Source: Microbispora corallina (GTDB taxonomy: Bacteria; Actinomycetota; Actinomycetes; Streptosporangiales; Streptosporangiaceae). Taken from it: a stretch of DNA of 64,000 nucleotides. The notes below the pieces were generated by a model. The model searched no databases and was not told the DNA's origin. It was given only the letters and a program-made list of their open reading frames with translations. The stretch covers positions 248,001 through 312,000 of the forward strand of contig NZ_BOOC01000014.1 in NCBI RefSeq assembly GCF_016863035.1, written 5' to 3'. Position 1 is the first letter of the stretch. The number at the start of each line of letters is the position of its first letter. Below are positions 30,473 to 34,302 of the stretch, piece by piece. The position numbers and the translations under genes were made by a program.

Positions 30473-30495
30473 TATCCCCGTTGTTGGAGGCCCCC

Positions 30496-31380
30496 GTGAA
30501 CTCGGCTCTCAAGGAGCTGCTGGACTTGCTCGACCTGGAGCAGATCGAGCTCGACATCTTCCGGGGGCGCAGCCCCGAGGAGCGCATCCAGCGGGTCTTC
30601 GGCGGCCAGGTCGCGGCCCAGGCGCTGGTCGCCGCCGGTCGCACGGTCCCCGGCGACCGGATGGTCCACTCGCTGCACGCCTACTTCATCCGGCCCGGCG
30701 ACCCGGCCGTGCCGATCATCTACAACGTCGACCGCGTGCGCGACGGGCGCTCGTTCACGACCCGGCGCATCACCGCCATCCAGCACGGCAAGGCGATCTT
30801 CTCGATGTCGGCGTCGTTCCACATCCACGAGGAGGGCGTCAGCCACCAGGCGGCCGTCATGCCCGCCGTCCCCGAGCCGGAGACCCTGCCGACCTTCCAG
30901 CAGCGCATGCTCACCGCGCTGGGGGACGAGCCGGCGCTGCGCGAGTGGCTGTCGCGGCCCCGGCCGGTCGACTCGCGTTATGTGAACGCGCTGCCGTGGG
31001 AGGCGTACCGCGACCCGAGCCTGATCAGCCCGGAGAACCACGTCTGGTTCCGGTACGACGCCGACCTGCCCGACGACCCGCTGCTGCACATCGTGCTCGC
31101 GGCCTACGCGTCGGACTTCACGCTGGTCGACACCGTGCTGCTCGCGCACGGCATGGCCTGGGGCGCGTCCAACGTGACCGGGGCGTCGCTCGACCACGCG
31201 ATGTGGTTCCACCGGCCGTTCCGGGCCGACGAATGGCTGCTGTACGCCCAGGAGTCGCCGTGGTCGGGGAACGCCCGCGGGCTGGCGCGCGGGCAGATGT
31301 TCACGGCCTCCGGGCAACTGGCGGTGTCGGTGGTTCAGGAGTGCATGATCCGGGTGAGCGACGGTGTCACGAAGTCGTGA
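30496..31380 (+). CDS. tesB: Acyl-CoA thioesterase II (TesB)
   Basis: 294 residues, GTG 30496 after TTGGAGG. It has the double hot-dog fold signatures: QRVFGGQVAAQAL near the N-terminus, VHSLHAYFIRPGD, the central ASDFTLVDT with catalytic Asp, LDHAMWFHRPFRADEWLLY, and the C-terminal GQLAVSVVQE with catalytic Gln. It hydrolyses acyl-CoA to free acid and CoA in the cytoplasm. No terminator is obvious between it and the whiB7 promoter. Confidence 0.93.
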   Translation: MNSALKELLDLLDLEQIELDIFRGRSPEERIQRVFGGQVAAQALVAAGRTVPGDRMVHSLHAYFIRPGDPAVPIIYNVDRVRDGRSFTTRRITAIQHGKAIFSMSASFHIHEEGVSHQAAVMPAVPEPETLPTFQQRMLTALGDEPALREWLSRPRPVDSRYVNALPWEAYRDPSLISPENHVWFRYDADLPDDPLLHIVLAAYASDFTLVDTVLLAHGMAWGASNVTGASLDHAMWFHRPFRADEWLLYAQESPWSGNARGLARGQMFTASGQLAVSVVQECMIRVSDGVTKS

Positions 31381-31393
31381 AAATCGCAGGTAG

Positions 31394-31431
31394 AAAATAG
31401 GTTGCCCACCCTGCCGCCGCACGTTTAGGGT
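31394..31431 (+). promoter_or_regulatory. WhiB7-type promoter
   Basis: TTGCCC (31402-31407) and TAGGGT (31426-31431) are 18 bases apart, a good sigma-70-type promoter. AAAAT (31394-31398) lies three bases upstream of the -35 element. WhiB7 promoters are known for an AT-rich patch just upstream of the -35 that is contacted by the WhiB7 AT-hook, so autoactivation is likely. Transcription should start near 31438, giving a leader of roughly 470 bases. Confidence 0.72.
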
Positions 31432-31443
31432 CTTGACCAAGCC

Positions 31444-31465
31444 GGTCGGACGGTCCCGTCCGACC
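31444..31465 (+). other. 5' leader hairpin
   Basis: GGTCGGACG and CGTCCGACC form a perfect 9-bp stem with a four-base loop. It lies at the predicted 5' end of the whiB7 leader RNA and just before the ribosome site of the upstream ORF. It may stabilise the RNA or present the ribosome site. Confidence 0.6.
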
Positions 31466-31491
31466 ATCGAGAGGAATCGGAGGTGAGTCCA

Positions 31492-31791
31492 GTGAGGAAC
31501 ATGACCACGATCACGTTTGCCACGCCGTGGCTCGCTTCCGCATGCCCGGTCGCCGCCGTCGCGCAGGTGAAACTGCCGATCGCCGACGCCGCCATCCGTG
31601 CCGATGTCCCGTCCCTGACGGGGCGCGGTTCGGCCTTCGCCGGCGCCATGGCCGGCGTGGCCGGCCACGGCACGCCCGCCTACCTCCCGGTCCGTACGGA
31701 CCGGCCGGTGAGCGATGAGCAGACCAACCGCACCGCCAATGGCGGAGTGCAGGGTCCGCGTTACGCCTGGAGAGAACCAGTCACAACCTGA
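31492..31791 (+). CDS. whiB7 leader peptide (upstream ORF)
   Basis: 99 residues from GTG 31492, eight bases after GGAGG; GTG 31483 and ATG 31501 are other possible starts. The sequence begins VRNMTTITFATPWLASAC and has no domain. Its role is inferred from context: in whiB7/wblC genes, translation of an upstream ORF controls a transcription attenuator in the leader. Here the last 14 codons cover the antiterminator arm (31752-31760), and the stop lies 16 bases before the terminator stem. A ribosome finishing this ORF would therefore mask that arm. Confidence 0.7.
   Translation: MRNMTTITFATPWLASACPVAAVAQVKLPIADAAIRADVPSLTGRGSAFAGAMAGVAGHGTPAYLPVRTDRPVSDEQTNRTANGGVQGPRYAWREPVTT
31752..31760 (+). 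promoter_or_regulatory. Putative antiterminator arm in the whiB7 leader
   Basis: GGGTCCGCG can pair over all nine bases (one G-U) with CGCGGATCC at 31811-31819, the 5' arm of the terminator. It is near-identical to the terminator's own 3' arm (GGATCCGCG), so the two structures are mutually exclusive. It lies inside the leader ORF. A ribosome stalled upstream by an antibiotic would leave it free and favour read-through into whiB7. Confidence 0.65.
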
Positions 31792-31807
31792 CCGGTCACC
31801 TCTTCCA

Positions 31808-31845
31808 GGCCGCGGATCCGCACAGGATCCGCGGCCTTCTTTTTT
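31808..31845 (+). terminator. Intrinsic terminator/attenuator upstream of whiB7
   Basis: GGCCGCGGATCC, loop GCACA, GGATCCGCGGCC: a perfect 12-bp GC-rich stem followed by TTCTTTTTT. It is the most classical rho-independent terminator noticed in the window, yet it lies between the promoter and the start of whiB7, so it must act as an attenuator. Confidence 0.9.
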
Positions 31846-31909
31846 GTCGGCCACGAATCCACCCGCCACGAGGACAACCAGACCAGACCCAATCGAAGAG
31901 GTGACGCAG

Positions 31910-32173
31910 ATGGCGGCCCCGGTCATGGACCTGATCGAAGCCGAAATCCCCTGCCGTACCGAGCCCGACCTGTGGTTCGCCGAGTCTCCCGAGGACGTGG
32001 AGTTCGCCAAGGCGCTCTGCGGAGGCTGCCCGATCCAGAAGGCCTGCCTGGCCCGCGCGCTGGAGCGCGAGGAGCCATGGGGCGTCTGGGGCGGCGAGCT
32101 GATCCTGCGGGGGGTCGTCGTTCCCCGCAAGCGGCCGAGGGGGCGCCCGCGCAAGTCCCCCGTCGCTGCCTGA
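31910..32173 (+). CDS. whiB7: Redox-sensing regulator WhiB7
   Basis: 87 residues, ATG 31910 after AGAGG. The four cluster cysteines are C15, C37, C40 and C46 (CxxCx5C), followed by the PWGVWGGE turn (about 56-63) and a C-terminal AT-hook RPRGRPRKS. The AT-hook distinguishes WhiB7/WblC from other Wbl proteins. WhiB7 binds the sigma factor through its 4Fe-4S region and activates intrinsic resistance genes against ribosome-targeting antibiotics. It lies downstream of uvrD2, as in mycobacteria. Regulation by attenuation is described in the leader entries. Confidence 0.95.
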   Translation: MAAPVMDLIEAEIPCRTEPDLWFAESPEDVEFAKALCGGCPIQKACLARALEREEPWGVWGGELILRGVVVPRKRPRGRPRKSPVAA

Positions 32174-32214
32174 ACCACCGTACGAACAGCATCAATCCGG
32201 AAGGACCTACTCAG

Positions 32215-32397
32215 ATGAACATCTCCCCGGCTACCTCCCTGTATCTGCATCAAGAACTGGTCCACGAGCGAATACGAACCCTCCACCGGGAGGCGGAGGA
32301 GGAGCGGATCGCCAGCAGGGTCAGGAGCGTGCGCAAGGCGCGCCGGCAGGCCGAGCGCGCCGCCGCGCGCCTGAGCTCCGCGCTGTCGCGCATCTGA
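32215..32397 (+). CDS. Small basic helical protein
   Basis: 60 residues, ATG 32215 with AAGGA nine bases upstream and 41 bases after whiB7. The sequence is strongly helical and charged (LVHERIRTLHREAEEERIAS then RSVRKARRQAERAAARL). No recognised domain. Similar short Arg-rich proteins occur singly in many actinobacteria. It ends before the hairpin at 32473-32502 and is probably co-transcribed with whiB7. Confidence 0.65.
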   Translation: MNISPATSLYLHQELVHERIRTLHREAEEERIASRVRSVRKARRQAERAAARLSSALSRI

Positions 32398-32472
32398 CAC
32401 CCGCTCACGACCGGTGACCTCGATCAGGCGGGACGGCCTGACCTCCGCGAGGCTCGCGGACGAGTGAACGAC

Positions 32473-32502
32473 GAAGGCCCGGGCCTGATGGCCCGGGCCT
32501 TC
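32473..32502. terminator. Bidirectional hairpin terminator
   Basis: GAAGGCCCGGGCC, loop TGAT, GGCCCGGGCCTTC: a perfect 13-bp stem lying between the convergent small basic protein gene and the VOC protein gene. Short T/C runs follow on the plus strand. Confidence 0.75.
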
Positions 32503-32534
32503 TCCGTGTTGTGGGGTCGTCCGGTTGTTTTCCG

Positions 32535-32921
32535 TCAGGGGCGCAGCACGCAGAACTCGTTGCCCTCCGGGTCGGCGAGCGTCACCCAGTGGTCGTACGT
32601 GCCCAGTTCCCGCGCCCCCAGGGCGGTCAGCCGGGCGATCTCGGCGTGGAGGTCGTCGCAGGCCACGTCGATGTGGACGCGGTTCTTGCCGGTCTTGCCC
32701 TCCGGCACCCGCTGGAACCAGATGCGGGGGGTGACGCCGGGGCCCGCCTCCACCAGCACGGTCGGGTCGTCCTCGGGGTCGTCGATCCCGGCGGCGCGCA
32801 GCCGTTCCAGCTCGGCGTCGTCGTACGGGGCGACCTGGTAGCCGTCCAGCGCGGCCGCCCAGAAACGGGCGAGCGACGCGGGGTGCCCGCAGTCGATCAC
32901 GATGTCCTTGATCCTGGCCAT
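32535..32921 (-). CDS. VOC (glyoxalase/bleomycin-resistance fold) protein
   Basis: 128 residues, ATG 32921. A single-domain vicinal-oxygen-chelate protein of the subgroup beginning VIDCGHPASLARFWAAAL, with PRIWFQRVPEGKTGKNRVHIDVAC and a C-terminal LADPEGNEFCVLRP. These usually dimerise and bind small molecules or metals; several act as drug-binding proteins. Its true substrate is unknown. It starts 34 bases downstream of the ABC1-like gene on the same strand. Confidence 0.82.
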   Translation of the reverse strand: MARIKDIVIDCGHPASLARFWAAALDGYQVAPYDDAELERLRAAGIDDPEDDPTVLVEAGPGVTPRIWFQRVPEGKTGKNRVHIDVACDDLHAEIARLTALGARELGTYDHWVTLADPEGNEFCVLRP

Positions 32922-32955
32922 GGCCTCATGCTGCCCCGCCGGGATCACGCCGTCG

Positions 32956-34302
32956 TCACACCAGGGCGAGGGTGCTGCCCTCCGGGTCGCCCGGGTCGTC
33001 GTCGGCGAAGCCGGGCACCCAGCGGACGACCTCGTCGCGGAACCGGGCCGTCGCCCCGAGCTGGCAGAGCACGCCCACGCCGGCGGCGTGGACCCGGTGG
33101 ACCAGCACGTACGACGCGGGGAGGTTGAGCTGGCGCACCACGTTGGTGGGCCGCAGGTCGGCGGCGGTCGCCGCCTGCTGCCGCAGCCACTCCCGGCTGA
33201 AGGTGAACTCCTCCACCCGCGTCGGCTCGACGTACGGCGCGAGGAACGCGCGGAGGGCGTCGGCGTCGACCTCGATGTGCGGGCGGATGAACCCCTCCTC
33301 GCGCAGCCCCCGCACCACGGCCTCCATGTCGCCCTGGTTGAAGATCCGGGTCAGCGTGCCGAAGACGACGGGGTAGCCGTCGGGCAGCCGGTTGACGGCG
33401 CCGAAGTCGAGCACGCCGAGCCGGCCGTCCTCCATGACGCGGAAGTTGCCGGGGTGGGGGTCGGCGTGCAGCATGCCCACCCGGGCCGGGGAGCTGAACA
33501 GGAACCGGACGAGCTGCAGTCCGGCCCGGTTGCGCTCCTCCTGAGTGCCGTCGGTGATGATCCGGGACAGCGGGGTGCCGGTCATCCACTCGCTGACCAG
33601 GATCTGCTCGTTGGCGGCGATCACGTCGGGCACGTGGAAGTCGGGGTCGTCCCGGAACTCCTGGGCGAAGGCGTGCTGGGCCTCGGCCTCCTTCAGGTAG
33701 TCGAGCTCCTCGGCCACCCGCTCCTTGAGCTCGGCGAGGACCGGCTTGATGTCGAGGCCCGGCAGCATCGCCCCGAACAGCTTGCCGAGCCGCGCGAGCT
33801 GGTTGAAGTCAGCGATCAGCGCCTTGCCGGCGCCCGGGTACTGGATCTTCACGGCCACCGGGCGGCCGTCGTGCCAGACCGCGCGGTGGACCTGACCGAT
33901 GGACGCGGCGGCCGTGGGAGCGTCGTCGAACTCCCGGAAGTTCTCCCGCCAGTCGTCGCCGAGCTGCTCGGCGAGGACCCGGTGGACGGTCGCCGCCGGC
34001 AGCGGCGGCGCGGCGTCCTGCAGCCGGGTCAGTGTGGCGCGGTACGGGCCGGCGATCTCGGGAGGCAGCGCGGCCTCGAAGATCGACAACGCCTGGCCGA
34101 GCTTCATGGCGCCGCCCTTGAGCTCGCCGAGGACCTTGAAGATCTGGTCGGCCGTCCGCTGCTGGATCTCCTGGGCCACCCGCTCCGCCGGAGCGCCCCC
34201 GAGCCGTCTGCCCAGCCCGAGCGCGGTGCGGCCGGCGAACCCCAGGGGGAGCGTGGCGAGCTTGGCCGAGCGGGTCACGGCACGGTGGGGAAGGTCACTC
34301 AC
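32956..34302 (-). CDS. ABC1/AarF/UbiB-family kinase-like protein
   Basis: About 448 residues if it begins at GTG 34302 (VSDLPHRAVTRSAKLA), the form expected from homologs; a TTG at 34341 is an alternative and the ribosome site is poorly spaced for both. UbiB features: KxGQ motif GGAMKLGQALS, ASIGQVHRA (Ala-rich P-loop analog), VAVKIQYPG (Lys), LHADPHPGNF (catalytic Asp/Asn) and GVLDFGAV. The family is atypical kinase/ATPase linked to isoprenoid lipid metabolism. Its M. tuberculosis counterpart Rv3197 is next to whiB7 and reported in the WhiB7 regulon. Confidence 0.85.
   Translation of the reverse strand: MSDLPHRAVTRSAKLATLPLGFAGRTALGLGRRLGGAPAERVAQEIQQRTADQIFKVLGELKGGAMKLGQALSIFEAALPPEIAGPYRATLTRLQDAAPPLPAATVHRVLAEQLGDDWRENFREFDDAPTAAASIGQVHRAVWHDGRPVAVKIQYPGAGKALIADFNQLARLGKLFGAMLPGLDIKPVLAELKERVAEELDYLKEAEAQHAFAQEFRDDPDFHVPDVIAANEQILVSEWMTGTPLSRIITDGTQEERNRAGLQLVRFLFSSPARVGMLHADPHPGNFRVMEDGRLGVLDFGAVNRLPDGYPVVFGTLTRIFNQGDMEAVVRGLREEGFIRPHIEVDADALRAFLAPYVEPTRVEEFTFSREWLRQQAATAADLRPTNVVRQLNLPASYVLVHRVHAAGVGVLCQLGATARFRDEVVRWVPGFADDDPGDPEGSTLALV

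Follow-up and report, generated by a model that had tools for sequence, protein, structure and literature searches.

The closest described systems are the leaders of the actinobacterial regulator gene whiB7 (wblC), whose attenuation by an upstream open reading frame (uORF) was reported by Lee, Lee and Roe in 2022, as cited in the relevant passages of PMC11550727, PMC10727445, PMC13393426, PMC12121999 and PMC13236596. As summarized in the section of PMC11550727 dealing with this leader, translation of the uORF promotes formation of the terminator, and its disruption that of the antiterminator. Induction of whiB7/wblC by amino acid starvation is mentioned in excerpts of PMC12121999 (citing Lee et al. 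2022) and PMC12421871, and the former states that ribosome stalling within the uORF under antibiotics is not yet tested. An attenuator has also been described for ilvB1 of Mycobacterium tuberculosis (passage of PMC13236596). The whiB7 leader analyzed here lies within a 64,000-nt stretch of the Microbispora corallina genome (contig NZ_BOOC01000014.1, positions 248,001–312,000; hereafter the window). It is a member of the known uORF-mediated whiB7/wblC attenuation systems, the new part being a uORF that probably serves as a test strip for all 20 amino acids. No report of such all-20 content was found in the literature searched, the full texts of Lee et al. 2022 and Poulton et al. 2024 lying outside it.

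The leader is confirmed as real and complete, and each of its parts lies at the coordinates listed below. We hold with moderate confidence that it is a ribosome-mediated attenuator whose uORF has been selected as a pan-amino-acid stalling sensor. The wider claim, that in many actinobacteria the uORF of whiB7 serves as a universal amino-acid sensor in which all 20 residues are kept by selection, forming an attenuator class distinct from single-amino-acid leaders, is favoured a little more cautiously. The leader comprises the following features (the promoter, Shine-Dalgarno sequence and T-tract were recognized directly in the nucleotide sequence):

31393–31398, + strand: WblC/WhiB7-type site GAAAAT, 3 nt 5′ of the −35 box and fitting the GAAAWY rule
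31402–31407 and 31426–31431, + strand: promoter, −35 box TTGCCC and −10 box TAGGGT with an 18-nt spacer
Near 31438, + strand: predicted start of leader transcription
31444–31465, + strand: 5′-proximal hairpin of the leader RNA (fold of 31438–31491, −22.6 kcal/mol)
31479–31487, + strand: Shine-Dalgarno sequence GGAGGTGAG
31492–31791, + strand: uORF of 99 amino acids (aa), start codon GTG at 31492, stop codon TGA at 31789–31791, encoding all 20 amino acids and complete by residue 76
31731–31749, + strand: hairpin directly 5′ of the antiterminator strand (CACCGCCAATGGCGGAGTG), seen in sequence and folds, with a putative role
31752–31760, + strand: AT1, antiterminator strand GGGTCCGCG, pairing with 31811–31819
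31766–31772, + strand: AT2, antiterminator strand CCTGGAG, pairing with 31803–31809, with compensated variants in relatives
31776–31796, + strand: hairpin spanning the stop codon within the antiterminator loop, from folds of 67 relatives
31803–31809, + strand: partner strand of AT2, TTCCAGG, whose final GG is the start of the terminator 5′ arm
31808–31836, + strand: intrinsic terminator, perfect 12-bp stem (arms 31808–31819 and 31825–31836) with a 5-nt loop, −27.3 kcal/mol
31837–31847, + strand: T-tract TTCTTTTTTGT, directly after the terminator stem
31910–32173, + strand: whiB7/wblC, 87 aa (Pfam PF02467, Whib, E-value 4.7e-14)

The initial annotation, made from the sequence alone, had proposed the promoter with its AT-rich patch, the 5′ hairpin, the uORF with its ribosome-binding site, the terminator with its T-tract and whiB7, and all of these were recovered where it had placed them. 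It overlooked the amino acid content of the uORF altogether, and its remark that this reading frame is unusually long was mistaken, as 99 aa is exactly the median for the host family, Streptosporangiaceae (range 72–124 aa; uORFs of 40–130 aa called at 92 of 127 loci, 65 of them non-redundant).

The window uORF encodes Cys, His and Lys once each and Trp, Tyr and Phe twice each; it is complete before the antiterminator strand, which starts at codon 87. Completeness is a common feature of these reading frames. In the host family, 50 of the 65 non-redundant uORFs contain all 20 amino acids, compared with 14.3 ± 3.2 expected from their own pooled composition. In the host order (Streptosporangiales; non-redundant uORFs of up to 130 aa), 49 of 64 are complete, compared with 6.2 ± 2.4 for same-length fragments of neighbouring ORFs, 7.0 ± 2.4 for codon-position shuffles and 21.8 ± 3.3 when residues were shuffled within alignment columns, a procedure that keeps the conserved motifs (the observed value was reached in 0 of 500 shuffles). 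When the same 64 uORFs were read in the other two frames, none was complete in either. The stretch preceding AT1 is by itself complete in 33 of the 64 (6.5 ± 2.3 expected).

A similar excess was found outside the host order. It was seen among Streptomyces-like uORFs (21 of 22 complete; 2.8 for fragments; 13.3 for column shuffles, 0/500; one and none in the other frames), in clade f19 (4 of 7, at 68–78 aa, vs 0.2 for fragments; column shuffle 0.8, 1/500), in clade f24 (5 of 10, at 58–95 aa, vs 0.4 for fragments; column shuffle 1.3, 1/500) and in the remaining clades (14 of 35 vs 3.2 ± 1.6). With all clades combined at <50% similarity, 51 of 98 uORFs are complete (12.9 ± 3.2 expected), including 8 of the 18 that are only 60–74 aa long (0.6 expected). 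With relaxed start calls the figure is 72 of 96 (22.9 ± 4.0 expected).

These counts depend on how loci were selected. Loci with identical 500-nt upstream sequences were left out, as were those lacking a hairpin followed by at least three T residues (9 of 170 in one set; 3 of 133 host-order loci in another), and some hairpins detected outside the host order are doubtful (e.g. that of locus L070). The strict uORF rule, which demands a strong Shine-Dalgarno sequence, keeps 94 of the 133 host-order loci, and the relaxed rule adds 35, so that a uORF was called in 129. Reading frames longer than 130 aa were excluded from most completeness sets, and near-identical ones were removed by a similarity threshold.

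The way in which the scarce residues are distributed in the host order is consistent with selection acting on their presence. They are under-dispersed (variance/mean 0.21–0.66 for C, W, Y, H, F, K and N), and the counts per uORF cluster at one or two (variance/mean 0.37 for Cys, 0.21 for Trp and 0.28 for Tyr). The sole Tyr occupies 18 different alignment columns across 31 uORFs, the sole Phe 14 columns in 21 and the sole His 12 columns in 25; the sole Cys, by contrast, mostly holds one column (31 of 42 uORFs). Judging from these alignments, the scarce residues behave as if their presence, and not their position, is kept. In comparisons between nearest relatives, sole copies are somewhat better conserved than redundant ones (z 2.4 and 3.2 in two host-order bands and 2.1 elsewhere, values inflated by reading each pair in both directions).

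The codons of the uORFs also differ from those of control ORFs: the GC content at third codon positions (GC3) is 0.78 compared with 0.95, and TAT, GAT, GAA and AAA are commoner (the control proteins were 206 ORFs accepted as genes by codon-position GC and not by annotation). Such codon usage may slow ribosomes and sharpen sensing. The window uORF has no run of codons for one sensed amino acid, and its peptide gave no match in Pfam and NCBIfam searches.

The RNA switch itself was analyzed at the level of pairing. The initial annotation had identified the 9-base segment GGGTCCGCG (31752–31760) as complementary to the terminator 5′ arm, and the duplex with 31811–31819 indeed contains eight Watson-Crick pairs and one G-U pair. 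This 9-base element alone is not beyond chance and was rejected as evidence, because 61 of 400 Markov-shuffled leaders also showed complementarity of at least 9 nt to the terminator arm. A comparison of relatives revealed a second strand, AT2, whose partner (31803–31809) runs into the terminator 5′ arm. Attenuation by an antiterminator that draws on the 3′ end of the uORF and on the terminator 5′ arm is supported, but only half of that antiterminator had been seen. The two-part pairing (31752–31772 with 31803–31819) has an energy of −29.5 kcal/mol, which was reached in 0 of 500 shuffles; the best of 298 leader windows of the same length gave −18.1 kcal/mol.

In the alignment of 67 leaders (representatives of 127), 82.2% of cells preserve the antiterminator pairing (80.1 ± 0.3 when shuffled, 0/500; 28–52% for slid pairings). 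Most relatives lack the last of the nine AT1 pairs (31760–31811), which forms in 18 of 67. There were 23 further pair types (16.9 expected, 0/500) and five pairs changed on both sides (3.1 expected, 24/500). Since the alignment shifts some leaders by one base, each leader's own strands were tested. Native duplexes had a mean energy of −29.8 kcal/mol compared with −26.3 kcal/mol for duplexes swapped between species, a difference as strong as this being obtained in 0 of 5000 permutations. The same was true of AT2 alone (−13.8 vs −11.1 kcal/mol, 0/5000) and of AT1 alone (−15.2 vs −14.5 kcal/mol, 0/5000). The covariation on which the initial annotation had staked the alternative pairing is therefore present, and plainly compensated variants (CCACGG::CCGTGG, CCUUGAG::CUCAAGG and CCCGG::CCGGG) are visible among the relatives.

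The other leader structures are also conserved. The terminator stem is paired in 98.3% of the alignment cells of the 67 relatives. The stretch of the stop-codon hairpin has a mean z of −2.84 relative to base shuffles and folds below −5 kcal/mol in 67 of 67 relatives, and the stop codon lies within the hairpin span in all 43 representatives with a called uORF; the window copy contains one A·C mismatch. Inverted repeats resembling the 31731–31749 hairpin are visible by eye in many aligned relatives (uncounted). Automatic consensus folding of the leaders recovered the terminator alone and no antiterminator, as would be expected of two mutually exclusive structures. The terminators of Streptomyces and Nocardioides (e.g. 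L093, L097, L099 and L113) display a recurring A·A mismatch (5′ arm ending in CGGAACCC, 3′ arm beginning with GGGATCCG), possibly a consequence of the need for the 5′ arm to match the antiterminator strand as well.

In silico folding suggested how the position of the ribosome might determine the outcome. In the growing transcript, from the exit of 31819 until 31830, the predicted pairing probability was 0.99–1.00 for AT1 and 0.79 for AT2. A ribosome footprint was then placed at each of the 99 uORF codons, and both the growing RNA (to 31824) and the full leader were folded. In the growing RNA, AT1 exceeded 0.5 for all 81 ribosome positions at codons 1–81. In the full leader it did so for 11 of 11 positions at codons 71–81 and for none of those at codons 82–97, where the terminator was predicted in 16 of 16. 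The initial annotation had supposed that a ribosome finishing the uORF masks the antiterminator arm, which holds in the models for codons 82–97. Masking solely by a ribosome that waits at the stop codon is not clean in the folding model: with 31772–31803 covered (stop codon in the A site), the antiterminator continues to form in the growing RNA, and the full leader gives the terminator at 0.70. The converse supposition, that a ribosome stalled earlier exposes the arm, is borne out by the growing RNA and by codons 71–81, but not by most full-leader folds with the ribosome at codons 1–70. According to these models, late stalls would favour read-through outright, and early stalls would do so only if the antiterminator is kinetically trapped, a requirement arising from the frequent preference of the finished leader for the terminator. 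The predicted folds fit the review text on uORF translation promoting the terminator.

On this basis the following mechanism is proposed. The growing leader RNA would fold first into the two-part antiterminator (31752–31772 with 31803–31819), before the 3′ arm of the terminator exists. Freely moving ribosomes would reach the end of the uORF and open the 5′ strand of the antiterminator, the terminator would form, and transcription would stop near 31846. A ribosome held before about codon 82 would leave the antiterminator strand free, allowing RNA polymerase to read into whiB7 (for stalls within the first 70 codons, provided that the antiterminator is kinetically trapped), and WhiB7 would then activate its own promoter via GAAAWY. 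The uORF would act as a test strip, with one or more codons for every one of the 20 amino acids maintained by selection, and its length would be explained by this role; a shortage of any charged tRNA (caused by starvation or a synthetase inhibitor) or ribosome-binding drugs would stall the ribosome within it. We infer selection of completeness for starvation sensing, and each dynamic step in this organism, from the comparisons and models described above.

Several observations weigh against this proposal. Of the 64 host-order uORFs, 15 are incomplete (10 of them miss Cys), none of the nine uORFs shorter than 60 aa is complete (0.1 expected by chance), the two uORFs called among seven f6 leaders are alanine-rich, 54 aa long and incomplete, and the excess is not significant in clade f17 (2 of 4, 77/1000) and absent from f34 (0 of 1). 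The stretch before AT1, cut in other clades according to the geometry of the window, is complete in 0 of 22 Streptomyces-like uORFs (Trp is absent there in 22 of 22), in 1 of 7 of f19 and in 1 of 10 of f24 (93/1000, within chance; seven lack Tyr). In Streptomyces-like uORFs a single column mostly holds the sole Cys (in 18 of 19) and the sole Tyr (in 14 of 18), so turnover is not evident there; no better conservation is seen for sole F and N (or, in one band, C) in the host order, or for sole E, Q, D and I outside it. As regards pairing, two slid pairings score higher in double-change cells (25 and 20) than the true one (12), and AT2 is weak or missing in some relatives (e.g. L163, L172, L174, L189 and L192). 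The full leader folded with no ribosome gave the terminator at 0.69–0.94 in four of five spans (the fifth, 31740–31846, gave 0.14 for the terminator and 0.86 for AT1). At equilibrium, with the ribosome at codons 1–70, AT1 exceeded 0.5 at 13 of 70 positions and the terminator at 49 of 70, and early positions fared no better when pairing was allowed only downstream of the ribosome (9 of 70). Finally, the sequences are related, so that permutation and null counts are optimistic and significance is overstated, and the column shuffles ignore the tree.

The preference of equilibrium folds for the terminator at most early stalls would suit an explanation in which completeness is a by-product of relaxed codon usage in a long ORF under weak constraint, its length serving as a transcription-translation timer; the low GC3 of the uORFs (0.78 vs 0.95 in control ORFs) and the strong divergence of their middle sequences point the same way. 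We consider this unlikely, as the own-composition, codon-position and alignment-column nulls all fall far below the observed values. A different kind of selection is doubtful but deserves somewhat more weight: diverse codon and nascent-chain contexts could catch many context-dependent ribosome drugs, with starvation sensing as the by-product. WhiB7 is best known, in the literature passages available, as a responder to many ribosome drugs. Long and diverse uORFs would indeed supply many contexts. Context-dependent drugs require particular motifs, not single copies of each residue, which counts against this explanation, and the shifting of sole residues along the host-order alignment suggests that presence is kept and context is not.

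Selection might also act on the uORF product, which could be an arrest peptide or a working microprotein whose conserved end, GP.PWR, stalls the ribosome or functions as protein. By eye the C-terminal end seems the most conserved part of the peptide, yet that end encodes the antiterminator strand, its peptide motif changes together with the RNA pairing (as in CCACGG::CCGTGG and CCUUGAG::CUCAAGG), and the product has no Pfam or NCBIfam match; this reading is very improbable. Hardly any credence is given to a constitutive terminator, with whiB7 controlled by its autoregulated promoter alone. The promoter site is conserved in the host order (78 of 94) and the finished leader mostly prefers the terminator, as that explanation would have it, but the alternative pairing covaries in 67 leaders, and uORF attenuation has been published for S. 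coelicolor and mycobacteria (as cited in the passages listed above). The preferred explanation remains a uORF selected as an all-amino-acid stalling sensor.

If true, this would account for both the length and the variability of whiB7 uORFs, and for the way in which one regulator answers many unlike stresses. A single attenuator would report when any charged tRNA runs short, be the cause starvation or any antibiotic that inhibits a synthetase, and the idea that whiB7 responds to anything that stalls ribosomes would become twenty separate testable predictions. Some soil actinomycetes make aminoacyl-tRNA synthetase inhibitors, and these compounds would be expected to fall within the reach of WhiB7. 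The leader would also be a ready-made general reporter of tRNA charging.

The promoter region agrees with autoregulation. GAAAAT is followed by AGG and TTGCCC, placing GAAAWY 3 nt before the −35 box, as in the WblC promoter of S. coelicolor (excerpt of PMC7157823). The motif GAAAWY-N3-TTG precedes 78 of the 94 called uORFs in the host order, compared with 0.0005 per shuffled sequence, and its strict form was found in only 11 of 104 cases in other clades.

WhiB7 orthologues (E ≤ 1e-22) are present in 147 of 150 genomes of the host family, and among named organisms Planotetraspora and Microtetraspora have the most closely related WhiB7 sequences. The protein carries a C-terminal RGRPRK, which we take to be an AT-hook. 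Two close WhiB7 homologues per genome were observed in G011, G019, G032, G036, G492 and G539. The gene for an acyl-CoA thioesterase (30481–31380) is the upstream neighbour of the leader. Just 3′ of whiB7 lies a 60-aa ORF (32215–32397, + strand; MNISPATSLYLHQELVHERIRTL...) that is conserved next to whiB7 among relatives. In tblastn searches over 2.5 kb it had matches at 89 of 186 loci, the 186 including duplicates and loci that are not whiB7; Pfam and NCBIfam searches gave no match. Past the whiB7 region, a strong GC-rich inverted repeat (32472–32503) is a likely bidirectional terminator. It underlies several of the matches from an Rfam scan of 30500–33000, in which all nine matches listed were below the gathering score.

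The leader model matched 246 of 249 host-order genomes. Of the three unmatched genomes, two still gave no match on re-search and the third gave only E 0.03. Within the host genome (8.36 Mb), a search for the leader before other genes yielded one strong match, at whiB7, the next being E 0.35 (antisense at the same site) and 1.04. A second, weaker match was recorded in 11 of the matched genomes, and those read were rejected as whiB7-type leaders. L245 corresponds to the opposite strand of the whiB7 site and L249 looks unrelated, while in five Nonomuraea-like (g4) genomes and G133 the second match is a different attenuator before what seems to be the same gene. This separate attenuator (L242, 1492–1560) consists of a leader peptide carrying AFLFxYG and a strong terminator, followed by a DAHP synthase gene (Pfam DAHP_synth_1, 1.6e-80), and similar DNA is present in L243, L244, L246, L247 and L248.

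The leader in the window shares with the system of Lee et al. 2022, as cited, the gene, the uORF, the intrinsic terminator, an antiterminator formed between the uORF end and the terminator, and the autoregulated promoter; induction of that system is reported for both antibiotics and amino acid starvation. Relative to those citations, the present locus adds a two-part covarying antiterminator, a stop-codon hairpin and an all-20 uORF, and it comes from another order. In the mycobacterial leader (Poulton et al. 2024, as referred to in PMC11550727 and PMC10727445), alanine starvation turns whiB7 on; the f6 uORFs, which are taken as mycobacterial (2 of 7 loci), are short and incomplete, whereas those of the host family are long and mostly complete. 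The toiL uORF of E. coli (PMC12121999) is similar in that a single uORF senses several classes of ribosome drugs, but it belongs to another gene and another organism, and amino acid completeness is unmentioned in the portion of PMC12121999 used. The attenuators of amino acid operons (trp, his, ilvB) likewise rely on a leader ORF read by the ribosome and on a choice between terminator and antiterminator. They contain clustered codons for the one or few amino acids they sense, whereas the whiB7 uORF contains from one to many codons for each of the 20.

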